Under the pieces are notes generated by a model. The model was given only the letters and a program-made list of their open reading frames with translations. It did no database searches and was not told the origin of the DNA. The position numbers and the translations under genes were made by a program. Of a DNA stretch of 64,000 bases, positions 2,934 through 61,479 are shown piece by piece. This DNA is from Candidatus Heimdallarchaeota archaeon LC_3 (lineage in GTDB: Archaea > Asgardarchaeota > Heimdallarchaeia > Hodarchaeales > LC-3), in the NCBI GenBank assembly GCA_001940645.1, contig MDVS01000033.1:29539-93538 (forward strand), written 5' to 3'. How positions within the stretch are numbered: the stretch's first letter is position 1; each line of letters begins with the position of its first letter.

Positions 2934-3042
2934 AAAAAGCCCTCATTGAAAATATAAAGGGAAATAATTTTATATAAATTGTATTTGAACAAAAAACAAT
3001 TAGATTAATTACTTTGAAGTTTGTTTCTTTTTAGTAAATAAT

Positions 3043-42009: not shown

Positions 42010-42558
42010 CTATAACTGGTAATGAAACTTTAAACAGGCTTTTCCCAAGGGTTCAAGGATTTTATCAATGTTGATATTAAATCCCGTTTTTGCTGAAATT
42101 TCTATATATGGGATGTCAAAACCATAAGGAACCATTTGCCCAGATAGTTTTGTACAATATTCATTTGCCTCTTCCAACGAAATGCTACCAAAAAATTGAC
42201 TACGGAGATCAATTTTATTCCCTAAAAGCACCAGAGGAAGAATACCTTTGCCATTATGATCCCAAATCTCTTTTATCCACAAATCTAAATTATCGAACGT
42301 TTTTCGTGTTGTCACATCGAACATCACCAACGCACCTAAAGCTCCAAGAAAAAAGACTGATCTTTTAGCCTTAAATTTTGGGTGTCCAGCCAGTATCAAG
42401 ATCTGGTATTTTATATGACGATCTTCGATCACAGATGTTCTTAAGCTCATAGCTTGTCCTACAGTTTTTAAATACCTGGATTGAAATGAACCTCCTAAAT
42501 GTTGATTAAAAAACGTAGTTTTCCCTACATTGATATCCCCAACAAGAACGATTTTCAT
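42010..42558 (-). CDS. Ras-like small GTPase with altered G3 motif
   Basis: A 182-residue small GTPase starting MKIVLVGDINVGKTT (G1 at 7-14), with Thr32 in the switch I region, G4 NKIDL and G5 EISAKT. In G3, where Ras proteins have WDLAGQ, this protein has LILAGH: the Mg-contacting Asp is Ile54 and the catalytic Gln is His58. Hydrolysis is therefore probably impaired or works differently. The next block KFKAKRSVFFLGALGALVMFD fits Rab/Ras helix and strand order. I used ATG 42558; the frame runs up to GTG 42591. No prenylation-type C-terminus is present. Confidence 0.88.
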   Translation of the reverse strand: MKIVLVGDINVGKTTFFNQHLGGSFQSRYLKTVGQAMSLRTSVIEDRHIKYQILILAGHPKFKAKRSVFFLGALGALVMFDVTTRKTFDNLDLWIKEIWDHNGKGILPLVLLGNKIDLRSQFFGSISLEEANEYCTKLSGQMVPYGFDIPYIEISAKTGFNINIDKILEPLGKACLKFHYQL

Positions 42559-43074
42559 CAGAAAAGTCAATTTTCTTTTTTCGCCTTCCACAAAGATCTG
42601 GTAGATCGTTTCTTCCTATCTTACTTTCTTATCTAAATTTGATTTTCTAGCATCCCAAATAAATCTAGTCATTACTTCAATTAAATCTCCACACATAACT
42701 ATTTTATATAAGACTTTCCCATAAATTGTTTTAGACTTAATTATCTATTAATTGTTTTCAAAATCTCATACCAACTAAAATCCATTGTAATTATGTTAAC
42801 TATTGGATTTTGAAAAAAAGTAAGAAATCAATTTAATCAAAACAGCTGATCCTACAACTAGAATAAGAGAAATTCCTAATAAATAAGCTACAGAAAAATT
42901 TTGAATTAATATCCCTTCATTGATTATTTTAAATTCTATAATTAGTTAATTAAGATTATATTAATGCCTTGGACTTTATTCTCATGATTATATCCATGCA
43001 TAGTATTAAGGAGTTTACACTCTGGATATTGATTACTTCTTCCCGTTCGATGTTCTTGTATTACCAAATTACCC

Positions 43075-44418: not shown

Positions 44419-45072
44419 TTAACTCTTTCTTTTTAAAGATGTAGGTAATTGTCGTGCTGAAGCTACTTTTTTTCCAACAACTGATTTTATATCTTGATCA
44501 GATTGAACTGAAAGTTGTTTTTTCTTATCATCCCTTACAATACCTTTTAGCACTGTCTCCGCTATTGATATAAATAATTCTTTAATATTTTTATTTGTTT
44601 TTGCGCTAGTCTCGTATATCATTTTAATATTTTGTTGATCTTGTTGTAATATTTTCATTTCTTCTAAATGTATTTTTCTTTTCCTTTTTAGATCTATTTT
44701 ATTACCTACAAGTATGAATGGAACCTGTTTCCCGATTTCCGTTTGTGCTTCGTCCAACCAATCCTTTATGTGATTAAACGACTTTTTTTCAGTAACATCA
44801 AACATCAAAATACCTGCTATAGCACCATTATAAAATGTTTTACGAAAATTTTTGAATGATTCTTGCCCTGCGATATCCCAAACAGTAATGTTTACTTTTT
44901 CATTTTTTTTATTTGAATTGTTATTGAATTCTACTCTGATTTTTGTAACATCGACACCAATAGTAGGAGAATAATTTGTGGCAAATTTTTCATCCATATA
45001 CTTACGAACTGAAGTAGTTTTTCCTACCGAACGGTCGCCAAGTAAGATAATCTTGAATAATTTGGTCATCAA
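44419..45072 (-). CDS. Rab/Ras-like small GTPase
   Basis: A 217-residue small GTPase with all five G motifs: GDRSVGKTT (G1), SPTIGVD (G2 Thr), WDIAGQESF (G3, with catalytic Gln), NKIDL (G4) and ETSAK (G5). The sequence is strongly eukaryote-like (Rab family), as known for Asgard archaea. The C-terminus is a basic tail ending KRKS, with no cysteine for prenylation. Possible roles are in membrane or cytoskeletal control, but nothing in context specifies one. Two possible starts (two Met in a row) make no difference. Confidence 0.95.
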   Translation of the reverse strand: MMTKLFKIILLGDRSVGKTTSVRKYMDEKFATNYSPTIGVDVTKIRVEFNNNSNKKNEKVNITVWDIAGQESFKNFRKTFYNGAIAGILMFDVTEKKSFNHIKDWLDEAQTEIGKQVPFILVGNKIDLKRKRKIHLEEMKILQQDQQNIKMIYETSAKTNKNIKELFISIAETVLKGIVRDDKKKQLSVQSDQDIKSVVGKKVASARQLPTSLKRKS

Positions 45073-48414: not shown

Positions 48415-49389
48415 TTATAGTGGTAGTTCCTGTCCTATTCTTTTCTCTTTGGCATATTTTAGGATTAAAGGAGCTACTGCCATATCGTCAAGTGCTAATC
48501 CTAAGTTTAGACAAATAATTTTTTCATTTTCATCTTCGCGTCCCGGTTTCATTCCTGCAACAAGTTCTCCCAGATCAGCATATGGTTCTGGAGTTTGTTG
48601 AAAATAGCCTGTTTTACGATAATAACGTAATTGAGCTAAATCATCCGTTGCAAGTTTATCTACTTCTTTAAAAGCTTTTCCTTGCCAATAAGAATCAAAA
48701 TCAACAGTACAGGCAAAAGCGCCTTTGGAAAGCCACCCGCTCCTAATTACTGGATTAGACTTTTTCACGATCGGACCACTTGTCACAACGAGATCTAAAT
48801 CTTTTACAGCATCAAAAGGGTTATCAACTATTTCAATTGGAATTTGAAGTTTTTTGTTCATTTCTTCTGAAAATTGTTAAGCCACTTCCAGAAGAATATC
48901 AAAAGCTCTAACTTTTTCAAGTGAAAAGACACAGGAGAGTGCTTCAAGATTACTCCGACCTTGAACACCACAGGCAATTATTCCCACACTTGAACTATCT
49001 TTTCTGGCAAGATGTTTTGCTGCTATGGCTGTTGCTGCACCAGTGCGCTTAGCTGTAATCCATGTACAATCCATCACTGCGATTGGTGCTCCTGTTTCAG
49101 GATCATTCAGAATTAAGAGACCCATTATATAGGGTAGGTTTTTTTTGTAATTTTCAGGGTAACCAGAAACCCATTTCATACCAGCAGAGTTCAGGGTTGG
49201 AATAAAAGCAGGCATAGCATGTATGAAAGCATTGGGTTGAGTATGAATACCCGGTTTTGGTGGCATTTCAACCTGTCCTTTGCCTTTCTGATGAAACATG
49301 GTCTCAAGAGCCTTAATAATTTCTTGCATGGGTAGATTAACAGCTTCTACATCTTTTTTAGAGAGATAAGTAAAATTTTGAGCATTCAT
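48415..49389 (-). pseudogene. Ornithine cyclodeaminase/alanine dehydrogenase-like gene interrupted by one TAA
   Basis: A mu-crystallin/OCD-family gene of about 324 codons. The first part (from ATG 49389) has MKWVSGYPENY, PIAVMDCTWITAKRTGAATA and the NAD-binding IIACGVQGRSNLEAL; then TAA at 48877-48879 stands where Gln (CAA) would fit, and the frame continues QFSEEMNKKL, DLVVTSGP and CLNLGLALDDMA to the true end. Apart from that codon both halves align with the family along the whole length. A single C-to-T change explains the break. The enzyme would make a cyclic or oxo product from an amino acid using NAD(P). Confidence 0.85.
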
Positions 49390-51248: not shown

Positions 51249-51920
51249 TCATAGCTTCAATAAATCCGGTTTTTCCCAATCTATTTTACAGGCTTTACAA
51301 GTATCAGCAACAAGAGAAATACTAGGTTCTAAATATTCGATTTCATGTTGACAGTATTCACAACCGCTATGAACGGTCTCAAGAATAGTCTCTTGGACAT
51401 TCGTCTCTTCACTTAGTAACTCAATACCCTTAGCAATCACTTCATTAACTTGTGGCCCACAACAACGTCCAGAAGGGTTATTAATATGGCATAGTTTCCC
51501 TGTACGGGCACCTGTGTACTTTTTAATATCTTCAAGGCTGGTAGCTCTCTTTGTAGTTACTATCTCATCCAAAATCCGATGTTCGAGAACATTCAAACAA
51601 TAGCATATTGGCCTAGGTTCTTCTCCATCTTTATGTGCTACTCTTGTTTTAACACCGTCCTCCAAGAAATAATAGCTCTTTTCATTATTAAAGTATATAA
51701 TTGGACATTTTTTCTGGGGACAAAAGAAATAATTGGTATCGCTGATAATATCCCAATATTTCTCTTGGATATGATTACGCATTGTTATTTTTTTAACAAT
51801 TAATCCTTTGGAACCAGAAACAGGACAAAATTTATACTCAACATGGTCTGGAACATCAGGCCAAATATTTACCTCGTTTTTGCTAACAGAAATGACAGAC
51901 TTAGGGCTCATAGTAATCAC
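51249..51920 (-). CDS. CopZ-like Fe-S/zinc metallochaperone
   Basis: A cysteine-rich 223-residue protein like the N-terminal part of archaeal CopZ. Cys32, Cys67 and Cys72 (FCPQKKCPIIYF) match its zinc site, though the second Cys of the usual CPxCG is Ser35. ICYCLNV (Cys106, Cys108) with later CHINNPSGRCCG matches the 2Fe-2S BFD-like part. A further CEYC and CKAC (Cys187/190, 208/211) near the end could bind another metal; the HMA domain of classic CopZ is absent. The gene ends a metal-related block on this strand, 264 bp after the methyltransferase. Twin TATA-like boxes precede the ATG. Confidence 0.8.
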   Translation of the reverse strand: MITMSPKSVISVSKNEVNIWPDVPDHVEYKFCPVSGSKGLIVKKITMRNHIQEKYWDIISDTNYFFCPQKKCPIIYFNNEKSYYFLEDGVKTRVAHKDGEEPRPICYCLNVLEHRILDEIVTTKRATSLEDIKKYTGARTGKLCHINNPSGRCCGPQVNEVIAKGIELLSEETNVQETILETVHSGCEYCQHEIEYLEPSISLVADTCKACKIDWEKPDLLKL

Positions 51921-51948
51921 TTAATTGAATTGAAAAAAGTTACAAAGC

Positions 51949-51978
51949 TAAATTTATATAAAGTTAAATTTATATAAA
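51949..51978 (-). promoter_or_regulatory. Duplicated TATA-like element before the CopZ-like gene
   Basis: TAAATTTATATAAA occurs twice in tandem with a 16-base period, about 30-58 bases before the ATG at 51920. One copy is a good archaeal TATA box. The same core (AATTTATATAAATT) precedes the ArsR gene at 53729-53743, so it may double as an operator. Confidence 0.5.
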
Positions 51979-52184
51979 CTTATTGTTATTTCGGAAAATT
52001 CATACTGATTTTAATATATCTGGCAAAAAAGAGCCCTACTACTAAAAAATTCGATATCCATAAACATAAGTTACACCATTTGACTTGTTCTTTAATAAAT
52101 ATCAAAATACATTCGATTTAATTTAAATTCTTTCGCAAAGAATTAATATTTATTATTTAACTATTAAGAATTAATATTTAACTA

Positions 52185-53177
52185 CTAATTATGAAATATT
52201 AATATTCCTGAATTCAATTGATAATTTTTCTTGTTGTATTTTATTTCATATGTTCTTATTGTTTCTTCTCGAAGAACTTTAAAGCCATTTTCTTGACATA
52301 GTGTAATAATGAAGTCCAAGCTTTGAGCATCAGCGATTCCCCCGCATTGAAATGCTGGATCATTACGTAACGACTCCGGAAGTATGTCTATTGTAAACTC
52401 ATCAGCCATAACTAGAACTCCATCAGCTTTTAAACATGTACGAACTTGTTGAAGGAAGTCACGCTTATTAGATAAAAGATTAAAGACATTGTTAACTAGT
52501 ATTAGGTCTTGAGATTCCGGTTTAACTAGCATTAAATTACTGGCTTGGTGAAAAACAGCATTAGGTAAATTCAGTTTTTGAGCAGTTTTTTTTGCAAAAT
52601 CCACCATTTCTGGTGTGATATCAATACCGGTAATCTGACTTGGAGCTATTAATGGAGCGATCTGAAAAGCATCATGACCAGTACCACTCCCAAAATCAAT
52701 CACAGACATCCCAAAGTGTAAGTATCCAAATTTCTCTAAATATTCCACCAAGTTGAATATGGAGCTAAAACTTGGGGCTTCAGAAAATTCCTCAAAACGA
52801 TCAATATCTGTCGTTTTACATACACAATAATCACTACAAGCAACTTCTTCTTTAGCTATAATCCTCTCTAAAGCTTGTTTATACTGTTTTTTAGTTAACA
52901 CATTTGGATCGTCTGCAGACAATATGATTTCGTCATCTTTACCTGTTATCGGTTTAATTGTTTTAATAGTAATCTGACAGGAGGAACAGCATCCTTCAAA
53001 AGATTCAAGACTTTTTGAAATTTGATTTTTCATTAACATAGACTCTAAAATAGAATTACCAGTAGATTTGTCTGTTTTTTTAAGACTACTCTCTTTAAGA
53101 TTTGAAAGTTTTTCTTCCACAGCAGTTATGCATCCAATACAGGTAACGTCATCAAATTCTATGAAATATCTGTCCAA
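52185..53177 (-). CDS. SAM-dependent methyltransferase with Cys-rich HMA-like N-terminus (ArsM-like)
   Basis: A 330-residue protein of two parts. The N-terminal 120 residues hold DDVTCIGCITAVEEKL (Cys13, Cys16), resembling an HMA metal-binding loop, then GCCSSC (63-67) and CSDYCVC (114-120). From about residue 150 comes a class I methyltransferase with motif I VIDFGSGTGHDAF, as in arsenite methyltransferase, and CGG at 278-280 where ArsM has its third cysteine. The ArsM cysteine of SNCVxNL is Asn230 here. Start TTG 53177 is ten bases after GGAAG. It may methylate As, or another metalloid or metal; the altered site makes arsenite uncertain. Confidence 0.82.
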   Translation of the reverse strand: MDRYFIEFDDVTCIGCITAVEEKLSNLKESSLKKTDKSTGNSILESMLMKNQISKSLESFEGCCSSCQITIKTIKPITGKDDEIILSADDPNVLTKKQYKQALERIIAKEEVACSDYCVCKTTDIDRFEEFSEAPSFSSIFNLVEYLEKFGYLHFGMSVIDFGSGTGHDAFQIAPLIAPSQITGIDITPEMVDFAKKTAQKLNLPNAVFHQASNLMLVKPESQDLILVNNVFNLLSNKRDFLQQVRTCLKADGVLVMADEFTIDILPESLRNDPAFQCGGIADAQSLDFIITLCQENGFKVLREETIRTYEIKYNKKNYQLNSGILIFHN

Positions 53178-53344
53178 TTATTTTTCTTCCGGATTTTTCT
53201 TTAGTTTAAGTGAAAATAAAATAATTATTAATTACTTTCTATTCATTTTTACATTTAGTTTTCGTTTTTTATCACCCAGGTAGGTTATTTTTTAGTATTC
53301 CTATAATTGCTTTAGATGAAATTGATTATTTCCATTTTTAATAA

Positions 53345-53701
53345 TCACAATTTTATCCTGCAAGCTTGGTGTGTTTCACAGTTTTTATGAAGAAGAAGAT
53401 AGCTATCAGCTAATTGAAAAATTTTCTCTACAAAATCCGGCTCATGAATCGAATAAATCATTTTTCTTCCATCTTTATCAGATTTAGTTCTGTTTAATAA
53501 TCCACAATCTGTTAAACAATGAAGGTGATATGATATCAAAGTTTGAGGTTTATTTAAAACTTCAATCAAATTATTTACTGAAGATTTACTATGCTCAAGT
53601 AAATATTCTAATATTAAATGACGAACAGAATCAGAAATCATGGTAAAAAATGCTGTTCGGGCGGAATTGGTAGTTGTCTCAGTTTTAATAATATCAACCA
53701 A
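53345..53701 (-). CDS. ArsR/SmtB-family metalloregulator
   Basis: A 118-residue repressor-like protein. The winged helix spans about residues 20-85: MISDSVRHLILEYLLEHSK, LNKPQTLISYHLHCLTDCG and a wing KDGRKMIYSI. Cysteines in HLHCLTDC and at the end (KNCETHQACRI) may form a thiol metal site. The start is TTG 53701. It precedes the methyltransferase and CopZ-like genes on the same strand, with 167 bp in between, so it probably senses the same metal and represses this set. Confidence 0.85.
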   Translation of the reverse strand: MVDIIKTETTTNSARTAFFTMISDSVRHLILEYLLEHSKSSVNNLIEVLNKPQTLISYHLHCLTDCGLLNRTKSDKDGRKMIYSIHEPDFVEKIFQLADSYLLLHKNCETHQACRIKL

Positions 53702-54193
53702 ATTTCAGTTGTAAATCATCTATTATAATTTATATAAATTTTGAATATCAGAAATAAAAATCTAGTGATATTAACGAATTCCTAATAAATGAGAATAAAA
53801 TTCTATTTCAAATCTGAAATAGAATTAATTTTACATAAAAATGCTTGTTACAATCTAGAATTTAGTTGAAAAGTGTTAGCTTTTTACAAATAATATATTG
53901 ATCAAGATCTTTAAACTTATCACTTTTTACCTACCATTGAATTTTATATAGATAAATGAAGAAGAACTTCGATTATTAAACTACTAATTACGAAATACTA
54001 ATAATCCTAAATCCAATAGATAGTAAACTATGGATATTTATCAATAGTTTTTAAATTAAACAATATAGAAATTCTGAGATTTATTTTACAATCAGGACCA
54101 TAATTTTTAATAGAATCGAAAAACTACAATCTAAGTCAAGAAAATAAGTTTATACTAATTAATTTTGTAAGATGGGACTAGACCATTATAAAA
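53702..54193. other. Gene-poor stretch with ArsR promoter
   Basis: About 490 bp. The TATA-like palindrome AATTTATATAAATT lies at 53729-53742, close to the ArsR start. No gene seen in the remainder. Confidence 0.45.
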
Positions 54194-54691
54194 CTAATCT
54201 ACATCTAGAACAATATCTTCTTTTTCAAATTGAATTTCTTGGAAGGACTCATTGATAAAGGGTTGCATCATATGTTTGATTAAAGGCAATTTTTCTTCAT
54301 TTATTCGGTAGTAATTCCATTTTCCTGTTTCAGAGACAACTTTTTCATGTCTTCCAGTTTTTTCATTTTTTACAAAAGATATTCTTCTATTTTTTAAGAT
54401 ATTCTCTTTTTTCATAATAGTTAGTTGTCTAGTAATTGCAGGTTGAGCCACGCTGTATGAATCACTATCTTCCGATAGATAATAAGGAGGATACTTTTCA
54501 AAATAAGAATTGAACAAGTTTTCTAATTCTAATGTACATATTTCTTTATTAATTAATAAAAACCTTAGAATATTTAATCTCAAGGGGTGAGCAATTGTTT
54601 TAAATAATTTTATAACTTCTTCGTCGGAAAATTTTAAGTTTGGAACAGTTTGAACAAGTTTTGAATTTGAAAAAAGGCTTACATAACTCAT
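54194..54691 (-). CDS. ArsR-like winged-helix regulator with long insert
   Basis: A 165-residue regulator. LFKTIAHPLRLNILRFLLI opens the winged helix, and PAITRQLTIMKKENILKNRR is the recognition helix, followed by a wing and ETGKWNYYRINEEKL, typical of ArsR proteins. Between helices 2 and 3 an insert of about 25 residues (NSYFEKYPPYYLSED) is unusual. A dyad at 54728-54753, placed between a TATA box and the start, may be its own operator. It separates the methyltransferase side from the SDR-MerB side. Confidence 0.78.
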   Translation of the reverse strand: MSYVSLFSNSKLVQTVPNLKFSDEEVIKLFKTIAHPLRLNILRFLLINKEICTLELENLFNSYFEKYPPYYLSEDSDSYSVAQPAITRQLTIMKKENILKNRRISFVKNEKTGRHEKVVSETGKWNYYRINEEKLPLIKHMMQPFINESFQEIQFEKEDIVLDVD

Positions 54692-54727
54692 AATTCTTAC
54701 AAGTGCTGAAGATTATTTAAATTTTTG

Positions 54728-54753
54728 GTTGCATAACATTACCAGTATGTAAC
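54728..54753 (-). promoter_or_regulatory. Probable operator dyad of the ArsR-like gene
   Basis: GTTGCATA and TATGTAAC form an inverted repeat with one mismatch and a 10-base spacer. For the minus-strand gene starting at 54691 it lies just downstream of a TATA-like TATATAAAG (54759-54767), where a bound repressor would block initiation. TATGTAA recurs at about 54778. Confidence 0.5.
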
Positions 54754-54923
54754 AAAAACTTTATATACCGATATCTGTATGTAATATTTATGATACAAAT
54801 GTCAGAAATTTTTAGCCAACAAGAAAATTATACCAAATTACAGATAAAACTATTCAATTAAAACAAGATTTGTGACATGAGGCACATGATGTATAAAGAA
54901 AAAAAGAAATAAGGTGATTTATA

Positions 54924-55664
54924 TTGAGTAAAAAATTTGAAAACAAAGTTGCATTTATTACTGGAGGAAGCACTGGAATCGGTTTTAGTACCGCTAAGCG
55001 CTTTGCTGAAGAGGGTGCTAAAGTAGTAATTGCTAGTAGTAATGTAGAACGTGGGGAAGCAGCAGTTAAACAAATAAAATCGTCTGGTGGAGAAGCCACA
55101 TTTATTCAAACTGATGTTTCGCAATTTGATCAGATCCAAAGAGCAATTGAGAAAACCATTGAAATTTATGGAAGATTAGATTTTGCCTTCAATAACGCAG
55201 GCACTCCTGGTAAGATGGGATCGTTACACACAGGTTCAGAACAAAATTGGGATCGTGTCTTAGATGTCAATTTGAAAGGAATCTGGGCTGCAATGAAATT
55301 TGAGATCCAGCACATGATCCAAAATGGGGGTGGCGTTATCATCAATAACTCCTCAACTGCCGGAGGACGAGGTATGGCTGGATTATCAGTTTATAATGCT
55401 AGCAAATTTGGAATTCATGGTTTAACAAAGGCCGCAGCTCTAGAATATGCTAAGGCCGGTGTCCGAGTTAATGTTGTAATGCCTGGTCCAATTGAAACTA
55501 ACATGATTCAAGGAATGCAGGAATATTTGGTGCCGATGGTACCCATGAAGCGCACCGGTGACCCTGATGATATAGCTAATGCTGTTTTGTGGTTGTGTAG
55601 TGATGAAGCTTCCTTTGTGACAGGAGTTGCTCTTCCCGTTGATGGCGGAATGCTTGAGTCATAA
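54924..55664 (+). CDS. Short-chain dehydrogenase/reductase
   Basis: A classical SDR of 246 residues: GGSTGIGFS (NAD(P) binding, about residues 15-23), NNAG (about 90), catalytic Ser in INNSSTAGG, then YNASK (Tyr and Lys), and the end VTGVALPVDGGM. It starts at TTG 54924, seven bases after AAGGTGA. Base composition seems higher in GC than in neighbouring genes and the sequence is bacterial-like, suggesting transfer. It precedes merB by 37 bp and is probably co-transcribed. Substrate unknown. Confidence 0.92.
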   Translation: MSKKFENKVAFITGGSTGIGFSTAKRFAEEGAKVVIASSNVERGEAAVKQIKSSGGEATFIQTDVSQFDQIQRAIEKTIEIYGRLDFAFNNAGTPGKMGSLHTGSEQNWDRVLDVNLKGIWAAMKFEIQHMIQNGGGVIINNSSTAGGRGMAGLSVYNASKFGIHGLTKAAALEYAKAGVRVNVVMPGPIETNMIQGMQEYLVPMVPMKRTGDPDDIANAVLWLCSDEASFVTGVALPVDGGMLES

Positions 55665-55701
55665 ATAATCTGACATTTTCAAAATTGGAAGTAAAAAAAT
55701 C

Positions 55702-56370
55702 ATGACAAAAAAAATCCTAATTGACGAAATAGCATCAAAATTCAGAATGATTGGAATGCCACCAGACTTAGACGAAAGAGCATCAAAATTTCTTGAAGTT
55801 ATATTAAAAGAAGTTACAAAAGGAAGTCCCGTTACTCAAGAGAAATGTTACGAAATTGCAGCAGAACTAAACTTGAGTAAAGAAGAAATAAGATCGTTCA
55901 TAGAAACCTCTACTGAACGGGATAAACAAGGTAGAATCTTAGGACTCTTCGGATTAACCCAAAATGAATATGCACATAAATTCGAAATTGATGGTGAAAA
56001 ATTGTATGCTTTTTGTGGCTGGGATACATTATTTCTACCTCAACTTTTGATGAAAACAGCAAAGGTTGAAGTAGTTGATCATCAATCAAAAGAAACAATC
56101 AAGATCGAAATATCTCCTGAAAAGGTTTTATCTATTTTTCCACCCACTGCTGTACTCTCGATAGTGATACCCGAGGTAGAAATAGAGAATTTAGCACAGG
56201 TTTATGGTATATTCTGTTCTAATGTCCACTTTTTTGCTTCTGAGAAGAATTTACGTGATTGGTTTGAACACAGAGAGTATAATCCCTTGGTAATATCGAT
56301 TGAAGAAGGTTTCGCACTTGGAACTTCATTATTTGGAAATATCATAGAAAATATTCACGCGGGGCGTTAA
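55702..56370 (+). CDS. merB: MerB-type organomercurial lyase
   Basis: Cleaves the carbon-mercury bond of organomercurials, releasing Hg(II) and a hydrocarbon. The 222-residue protein has an N-terminal helical domain (1-75), then ILGLFGLTQNEYAHKFEI and FCGWDTLFLP, where Cys105 and Asp108 match the catalytic Cys96 and Asp99 of the plasmid R831b enzyme, and FCSNVHFFAS, where Cys172 matches Cys159. The triad is therefore complete. It follows an SDR in the same direction. No mercuric reductase or mercury transporter is in the window. Another organometal substrate is possible, but the family call is strong. Confidence 0.9.
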   Translation: MTKKILIDEIASKFRMIGMPPDLDERASKFLEVILKEVTKGSPVTQEKCYEIAAELNLSKEEIRSFIETSTERDKQGRILGLFGLTQNEYAHKFEIDGEKLYAFCGWDTLFLPQLLMKTAKVEVVDHQSKETIKIEISPEKVLSIFPPTAVLSIVIPEVEIENLAQVYGIFCSNVHFFASEKNLRDWFEHREYNPLVISIEEGFALGTSLFGNIIENIHAGR

Positions 56371-60252: not shown

Positions 60253-61479
60253 ATGTTTAATAAAATTAGCATCCTCGACTTACATCAATTCATTACTCAT
60301 GAAACTGAATTTATCCTTCTTGATGTTCGTACATTCCATTCATTTCAGAAAGGCCATATCTCAGGTGCTACTTCTGTTCCATTACATGAAATTGATCAAT
60401 ATGCAAGCAAATTAGCTAAAGATAAGACTATCGTAGTCTATTGTCAAAATGCACCATGTTCGATGTCGACTCAAGCCGCTATTACACTGGAAAGTCTCGG
60501 ATTTCAGAACATTAGTAAGTTAGATGTTGGTTTTGATGAATGGAAGGTGGGTGGTTATCCGATAGAAATGGAAGAAAAACAGCTAATTATAGATTCCTCG
60601 ATTTCATACAGATCAATTACTATTCCAATAAAAACTAAAACGAAAATATTTGATAAAACTTTAAAAAATGAATTCATTTCATCAGATGTTATTGTCGAGT
60701 TTCTTGAGAAAAATGCTTTTGTCTTCGATTTTGAATATATAGGCTACGAAATTAAAACAGTAAATGAAATCAACAACATTTTTTTAATGATAAACCCTGA
60801 TCCACGTAATTTTAAATTTGTACCTTCAAGAAGCTTAGTAATTTGTCACCATAAAATCTCTGTATATAATAATCGTATTTATGACGCGATCCTTGCACAA
60901 GCTAAGGAAAAAAACTTTAATATCTATAATTTTCATCTGGGATGGGATACGATGATTGACGGAATTGGAGATTCGTTTTTATTTCATCTTGGAATAATGA
61001 AAGAAGAAATTCAAAAAGTTGATCTCACCTATAAAGGTCATCAAGTGCCTAGATTAGGATCCGTTATCCGTTCTGACATTTCTCTTGAAGAAATTGTGAC
61101 TCGCTTAGATTCATTGAATGTTAACCCTTCTGTAATCGTAAATCCTAAATGTCAGAATTCTAAGGTTGGATATATCCCTGGGGGGGGGTTTATCGATAGT
61201 ATGATCATAGAAATGTCCGATTTAGGAACCGACATTTTGGTATCTTCAGATCCAAATTGGGTTGTCGAAATCATAGCACGGGAGCTTGGTATGACACTGA
61301 TTGCAATTGATCATTACACTAGCGAACGGTATGGTCTGCAAGCCATGCAAACACTTCTGACAACAGCTTTTCCTAAAAATCCAACTATTATATTGGAAAA
61401 TGTTGATTCAATTCAATGCCCACCTGATGATTGTCCTTGTTGTGATGAGGAATATTTGAAAAAAGTTCCTATTAGATGA
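60253..61479 (+). CDS. Rhodanese-Nif3 fusion protein
   Basis: A 408-residue fusion. Residues 1-110 form a rhodanese domain: LLDVRTFHSF, GHISGATSVPLHEI and active loop CQNAPCSMS with catalytic Cys64. From about residue 195 comes a Nif3/DUF34 domain with the metal-binding blocks VICHHKI, NFHLGWDTMIDG, YIPGGGF, VSSDPNW and IDHYTSERYG. An uncharacterised linker of 80 residues separates them, and the end has CPPDDCPCC, a possible metal site. Nif3 proteins are dimetal hydrolase-like; the rhodanese suggests a sulfur-transfer link. Start ATG 60253; ends with TGA. Confidence 0.88.
   Translation: MFNKISILDLHQFITHETEFILLDVRTFHSFQKGHISGATSVPLHEIDQYASKLAKDKTIVVYCQNAPCSMSTQAAITLESLGFQNISKLDVGFDEWKVGGYPIEMEEKQLIIDSSISYRSITIPIKTKTKIFDKTLKNEFISSDVIVEFLEKNAFVFDFEYIGYEIKTVNEINNIFLMINPDPRNFKFVPSRSLVICHHKISVYNNRIYDAILAQAKEKNFNIYNFHLGWDTMIDGIGDSFLFHLGIMKEEIQKVDLTYKGHQVPRLGSVIRSDISLEEIVTRLDSLNVNPSVIVNPKCQNSKVGYIPGGGFIDSMIIEMSDLGTDILVSSDPNWVVEIIARELGMTLIAIDHYTSERYGLQAMQTLLTTAFPKNPTIILENVDSIQCPPDDCPCCDEEYLKKVPIR

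Follow-up and report, generated by a model that had tools for sequence, protein, structure and literature searches.

ArsM enzymes, the methyltransferases that modify As(III) with S-adenosylmethionine (SAM), are thought to bind arsenic directly on their own cysteines. The CopZ protein of Archaeoglobus fulgidus carries zinc and BFD-like [2Fe-2S] domains in its N-terminal part, followed by a C-terminal HMA domain. Among Asgard archaea, arsM and acr3 genes are reported in PMC10060404; PMC8261052 places MerB in three Heimdallarchaeota genomes and MerA in one, and lists 906 of 1795 MerB-carrying genomes as lacking MerA. Here we describe relatives of these proteins in a 64-kb stretch of Candidatus Heimdallarchaeota archaeon LC_3 (contig MDVS01000033.1; hereafter, the window), where six genes form an island encoding a CopZ-like protein, a methyltransferase, two ArsR-type regulators (ArsR1 and ArsR2), a short-chain dehydrogenase/reductase (SDR) and a MerB-family alkylmercury lyase (Table 1). 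Judged by its sequence, the methyltransferase is an ArsM derivative fused to an HMA domain, resembling ArsM plus an added carrier.

A predicted HMA-fused, ArsM-derived methyltransferase

An earlier note on this locus had described the enzyme as a Cys-rich methyltransferase. It is more precisely a fusion of an HMA domain with an ArsM-like enzyme. The Atx1-like HMA domain (about residues 1-77) has the babbab fold with a CxxC in its first loop (C13xxC16) and a second group of cysteines, C63C64xxC67; a linker with C114xxxC118xC120 leads to the SAM domain (about 130-330), which contains C278. Fold and CxxC loop are those of HMA/Atx1-type metallochaperones, from which the fusion differs by the extra CCxxC cluster before the last strand and by the attached methyltransferase. 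The Pfam score of the window's HMA domain is weak (E 0.21); among 24 rows compared, 12 reach E<=1. The SAM domain matches Methyltransf_31 (2e-24), and its nearest neighbors in both fold and sequence are ArsM/AS3MT enzymes (PDB 6cx6, 5evj, 8xt7). The NCBIfam arsenite methyltransferase model PRK11873 is matched at E 2.7e-25, but the 89 bits fall short of its cut-off (263).

The HMA-fused methyltransferases form a single clade (support 100/100) in a tree of 25 HMA rows and 22 others; the window's own record (P0009), two partial ones (P0019 and P0033) and one cut locus (L003) stood outside this tree. All 25 fusions share N230 (SNC changed to NN) and G280 (GC changed to GG), at columns that hold Cys in 22/22 and 21/22 (one gap), respectively, of the ordinary ArsM-like proteins. 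These columns correspond to the As-binding C174 and C224 of CmArsM; C224A and C72A mutants occur among the ArsM structure matches. Nine other cysteines are invariant in all 25 fusions, among them five within the HMA domain, those of the linker and C278. C114 falls in the column of the leading Cys in ArsM's CC pair, occupied by Cys in all 21 of the other proteins having a residue there; C120, also invariant in the fusions, is Cys in none of the 14 others with a residue at that position. Thus, the fusion shares fold, SAM domain and the C114 column with ArsM, but because the defining pair of As-binding cysteines was looked for in the SAM domain and found to be absent, we do not class it as an ArsM. 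Viral contigs yielded a single weak match to the SAM domain (L004), and a literature search conducted largely without subscription papers found no HMA-ArsM fusion.

The CopZ-like protein and its relatives

The protein previously put forward as a CopZ-like chaperone does contain zf_CopZ (PF18423, 3.4e-15) and BFD-like (Fer2_BFD, PF04324, 2.8e-7) domains, and its sole solved relative at E<=0.1 is the N-terminal part of A. fulgidus CopZ (PDB 2hu9, E 1.8e-32). It lacks the C-terminal HMA domain of A. fulgidus CopZ, giving no Pfam match to HMA at E<=0.1, and ends instead in a Cys-rich tail with two CxxC pairs.

CopZ-like matches occur in 15 of 227 Asgard genomes, five of them strong (G002, G033, G036, G040 and G041). 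The MerA cut-off was passed in 13 of the 227, including two of the five strong CopZ carriers (G033 and G040); in G041, MerA is cut short (428 bits versus 454), and neither of the fusion carriers G001 and G002 has a MerA above cut-off. The co-occurrence of MerA with strong CopZ gave a one-sided Fisher p of 0.028 at a CopZ threshold chosen afterwards, and we treat it only as a hint because the two genes lie on separate contigs in G033, G040 and G041.

CopZ-like proteins were also found in 24 of 72,556 plasmid records, all 24 of whose surroundings were viewed. A mercury-labelled gene lay within 4 kb in 11 (H1, H4, H11, H13-H19 and H68), and only a MerR-family gene in five (H6, H7, H9, H20 and H67). 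One (H8) bore the merA label itself but is a CopZ-MerT-HMA fusion; the remaining seven had other neighbors (H2, H3, H5, H65 and H66) or were unannotated (H10 and H12). These counts include near-copies from Cytobacillus (three) and from Halorussus, Stenotrophomonas and Alicyclobacillus (two each). In Deinococcus wulumuqiensis (L105) the CopZ gene is directly 5' of merB, and in Stanieria (L088) a merF-CopZ pair is followed by a SAM methyltransferase gene. On a Planctomycete plasmid (L086:3857-5092, P0069), a gene labelled 'merA' joins zf_CopZ, a MerT membrane part and HMA in one chain; it is a mercury-transport fusion rather than MerA.

The mercury-linked plasmid proteins are of a GSCCLGNV-like subtype and form a clade apart from the window protein in a tree built from the window sequence, 17 of 33 P rows, 12 rows from Asgard genomes (one of which duplicates a P row) and 17 of the 24 plasmid records, in which G102, Halorussus and the Planctomycete fusion call for a long-branch warning. 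Two plasmid proteins, from Anaerococcus and Acetoanaerobium, are of the Csac_0668 type; the latter, which scores 236 bits (cut-off 190), has an ACR3 gene (390 bits, cut-off 283) downstream of it. The window protein scores 115 bits with the Csac_0668 model and 90 with the model of the other subtype, under both cut-offs. Since its kin are linked to mercury genes in some cases and to ACR3 in another, the CopZ-like family appears not to be tied to a single soft element, and it does not point to a particular one in the window.

Two ArsR-type regulators

Both of the proteins earlier read as ArsR-type repressors are of that type, though ArsR2 no longer has the CxC that its relatives carry. ArsR1 matches Pfam HTH_5 (4.9e-8) and reaches NCBIfam HTH_metalloreg exactly at cut-off (55 bits, cut-off 55). 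With CmtR, the Cd/Pb-sensing ArsR protein, it shares a CxxxC within the DNA-binding region together with C-terminal Cys, but it scores just 32.1 bits against the CmtR cut-off of 150 (E 8e-8). Matches to ArsR1 occur in 97 of 227 Asgard genomes, most of them weak; the best (45%) is a tandem-fused ArsR with CxxxC in both halves (G054, L151:1941-2648). An ArsR encoded immediately 5' of an HMA-MerA gene in G189 likewise has CxxxC and a C-terminal Cys; in G056 and G061, the ArsRs that adjoin ArsM-like and ACR3 genes are without this cysteine pattern. These comparisons weakly favor a soft divalent ion over arsenic.

ArsR2 matches Pfam HTH_5 (E 0.031) and NCBIfam HTH_metalloreg (3.2e-10), both below cut-off, and has counterparts in five of 227 Asgard genomes. 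At five of their six loci (G042, G043, G047 twice and G048, with G141 the exception) the counterpart adjoins an ArsM-like gene, which argues that ArsR2 derives from an ArsM-linked lineage. Four aligned relatives from such loci carry ELCTCDL and an N-terminal CC, where the window protein reads EICTLEL and has no such CC; with the CxC gone, we do not rely on ArsR2 as a functioning sensor. At one locus (L081:6153-7307, G043) ArsM-like and ArsR2-like parts share one open frame, possibly an enzyme-regulator fusion.

Two divergent gene sets and a repeated promoter element

Open reading frame (ORF) listing together with Pfam and NCBIfam profiles confirmed all six genes at the positions first assigned to them. 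They are arranged not as a single tight operon but as two divergent sets: a minus-strand set with intergenic gaps of 492, 167 and 264 bases, and a plus-strand pair, SDR and MerB, separated by 37 bases. The named nearest homologues of the CopZ-like protein, MerB and the methyltransferase are from Hodarchaeales, Heimdallarchaeota or Kariarchaeaceae, and the window (G+C 30%) encodes Ras-family GTPases, both of which support the view that genes of thiophilic-metal type sit here in an Asgard setting.

Table 1. Features of the window discussed in the text.
Feature	Position	Strand	Description
AATTTATATAAANTT, fourth copy	2966-2980		
Ras-family GTPase	42010-42591		
Ras-family GTPase	44419-45072		
CopZ-like protein, 223 amino acids (aa)	51249..51920	-	zf_CopZ, BFD-like [2Fe-2S], Cys-rich tail
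AATTTATATAAANTT, two tandem copies	51951..51981		31-61 bases upstream of the CopZ-like gene's start; TATA-like; may be an operator
HMA-ArsM-like fusion methyltransferase, 330 aa	52185..53177	-	HMA, linker, SAM domain
ArsR1, ArsR/SmtB regulator	53345..53701	-	CxxxC (HCLTDC) in DNA-binding region, two C-terminal Cys
AATTTATATAAANTT, third copy	53727..53741		26-40 bases upstream of ArsR1
ArsR2, ArsR-type regulator of ArsM-linked lineage	54194..54691	-	CxC reduced to single Cys; 19-residue insertion
SDR, first gene of likely SDR-MerB pair	54924..55664	+	Pfam adh_short, 3.2e-58
MerB-family alkylmercury lyase, 222 aa	55702..56370	+	C105-D108-C172 triad, '117alt' type

The 15-mer AATTTATATAAANTT occurs four times in the 64 kb, against 0.07 expected, and none of 100 shuffles reached four copies. 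Because it was picked after the repeat had been seen and resembles a TATA box, we regard it only as a lead. It is absent upstream of SDR-MerB and directly upstream of the methyltransferase gene, a distribution that speaks against one operator common to all island genes. Among 158 loci compared, just one (L132) contained it.

Two further genes of the window are recorded here. A minus-strand ornithine cyclodeaminase/mu-crystallin-type gene (48415-49389) is split into two ORFs matching the two family halves and is probably frameshifted or a pseudogene. On the plus strand, 60253-61479 encodes a protein that joins a rhodanese domain to a DUF34/NIF3 domain and has a Cys-rich C-terminal tail.

A divergently transcribed MerB without an adjoining MerA

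The window MerB matches the Pfam MerB domain (E 5.6e-25), and its profile finds the alkylmercury lyase of PDB 1s6l (E 2e-41). Cys105, Asp108 and Cys172 align with the catalytic Cys96-Asp99-Cys159, so the complete Cys-Asp-Cys triad previously claimed for it holds. It differs from that enzyme in an Asp in the Cys117 column, the fourth signature Cys not being kept, in the lack of an adjoining MerA, and in scores below both NCBIfam MerB cut-offs (161.5 versus 193 and 143 versus 200 bits). By the rule of PMC8261052, the Asp makes it a '117alt' MerB-like protein.

The absence of a neighboring MerA was also correctly noted. A six-frame scan of the window gave no match to C[VI][NY][VIY]GC (the MerA-type redox motif), DKTGT or an ACR3 motif, and no MerA-like frame was seen in the window's ORF lists at minimum lengths of 50, 110 or 80 aa; no MerA was thus seen next to MerB, where a mer operon would have one. 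Novelty of MerB without MerA is not supported: this arrangement and MerB in Heimdallarchaeota are both already described in PMC8261052. Taken alone, this MerB is one more member of a published pattern.

Its kin are few: seven other protein records are close, and weak matches occur in three of 227 Asgard genomes. G116 has two closely similar long MerB-like genes (L084 and L085), one of them adjoining a MerA above cut-off. In G166, a distant MerB-like protein in which C, D and C are all present (L083:6386-7039) has neighbors that, by eye, resemble propionyl/methylmalonyl-CoA genes.

Gene neighborhoods in relatives

We compared the surroundings of related genes to assess conservation of the island, as the earlier note had proposed. 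None of the three HMA-fused loci (L001, L002 and L003) matched other island genes, and tblastn with the partner genes found no match at any of the 12 CopZ-like Asgard loci. Therefore, the island's gene order is not conserved in any relative compared.

The 16 Asgard loci of ArsM-like genes without HMA had other company. Four (L068, L070, L072 and L074) have an ACR3/SBF-type gene, each together with an ArsR-type gene; L070 and L074 pass the acr3 cut-off, L068 is slightly under it and L072 is a fragment. A further check upheld the ACR3, MerT and HMA-MerA assignments given here. At L075, L076, L078 and L081, an ArsR2-like gene overlaps, follows or is fused with the ArsM-like gene. The other eight, as read here, lacked both an ACR3-type gene and an overlapping ArsR2-like gene, although L069 at least has an ArsR-type helix-turn-helix gene.

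Discussion

We tentatively favor a reading in which ArsR1, the HMA-methyltransferase and the CopZ-like protein make up a single unit handling a thiophilic (soft) metal or metalloid ion. This reading extends to the unit and its soft-ion role and names no element; SDR-MerB is a separate, divergently transcribed neighboring unit that probably does not form one system with it. From what is directly observed (the genes present, their domains, the cysteines kept and lost, the single clade and the shared promoter element), we infer how regulation, ion transfer, methylation and any link to MerB might proceed. ArsR1 would act as repressor of the CopZ-like gene as well as of its own gene and the methyltransferase gene that follows; binding of a soft ion to its CxxxC and C-terminal cysteines would release it from DNA. 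The CopZ-like protein would bind the ion and pass it on to the methyltransferase's HMA domain. The five cysteines there may do the work of those that bind As(III) in ordinary ArsM and are lost here, and the SAM domain could then methylate the delivered ion. MerB may cleave organomercurials, with the freed Hg(II) possibly buffered by the same thiol proteins.

The sequence itself does not single out mercury, arsenic or another element: ArsR1 leans toward a divalent ion, and the ArsM ancestry and CopZ subtype lean toward arsenic. The unit could be one for arsenic (or antimony) methylation, the fusion being a modified ArsM that receives As(III) through its HMA domain and MerB an unrelated neighbor. 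The fold and sequence proximity to ArsM/AS3MT, the ACR3-type genes at 4/16 loci of non-HMA relatives, the ArsR2 kin beside ArsM-like genes at 5/6 loci, the ACR3 gene after the Acetoanaerobium CopZ, a Haladaptatus plasmid with the order ArsR-ArsR-arsM-arsN2, and the Asgard arsM and acr3 of PMC10060404 all fit this explanation. We nevertheless hold it on the unlikely side, given that two cysteines of ordinary ArsM are lost in 25/25 fusions, that the window scan found no ACR3 motif, and that the cysteine pattern of the ACR3-adjoining ArsRs of G056 and G061 is missing from ArsR1. Were the HMA domain instead only a metal sensor, with the SAM domain methylating a small thiol, protein or lipid, one would not expect linker cysteines and C278 to be invariant in every fusion, nor neighbors of metal type; this we judge quite improbable.

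The earlier note's interpretation as a whole is only partly supported, and its proposal of a mercury methylation-demethylation pair served by a dedicated chaperone is the part that fares worst. MerB's intact triad and the distant CopZ-like proteins that track mercury genes (D. wulumuqiensis, Stanieria and the P0069 fusion) speak for it, but those CopZ proteins belong to a different subtype, the Stanieria methyltransferase resembles the window's over 138 SAM residues only (25% identity), and MerB belongs to the divergent pair, which has no copy of the shared promoter element. The methyltransferase is ArsM-derived, mercury methylation by it finds no support, and SAM enzymes are not known to methylate Hg(II); such a pair is very improbable. 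An unlikely, though less remote, explanation is a chance neighborhood of unrelated, partly acquired genes in a gene-poor stretch. The unconserved gene order, wide intergenic gaps, scarcity of MerB kin (seven other records; weak in 3/227 genomes) and apparent degeneracy of ArsR2 are consistent with it; four consecutive metal-type genes and a common promoter element argue against it.

If the favored unit of ArsR1, HMA-methyltransferase and CopZ-like protein is taken a step further, the fusions may be a Heimdallarchaeia/Hodarchaeales methyltransferase family with a built-in chaperone, in which the CopZ-loaded HMA domain offers a soft metal or metalloid ion to a SAM domain lacking two of its former binding cysteines and so sets the substrate; the element is possibly new to SAM methylation. 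This is a doubtful extension. If true, it would offer a natural experiment in element choice by a methyltransferase, in archaea near the eukaryote lineage.

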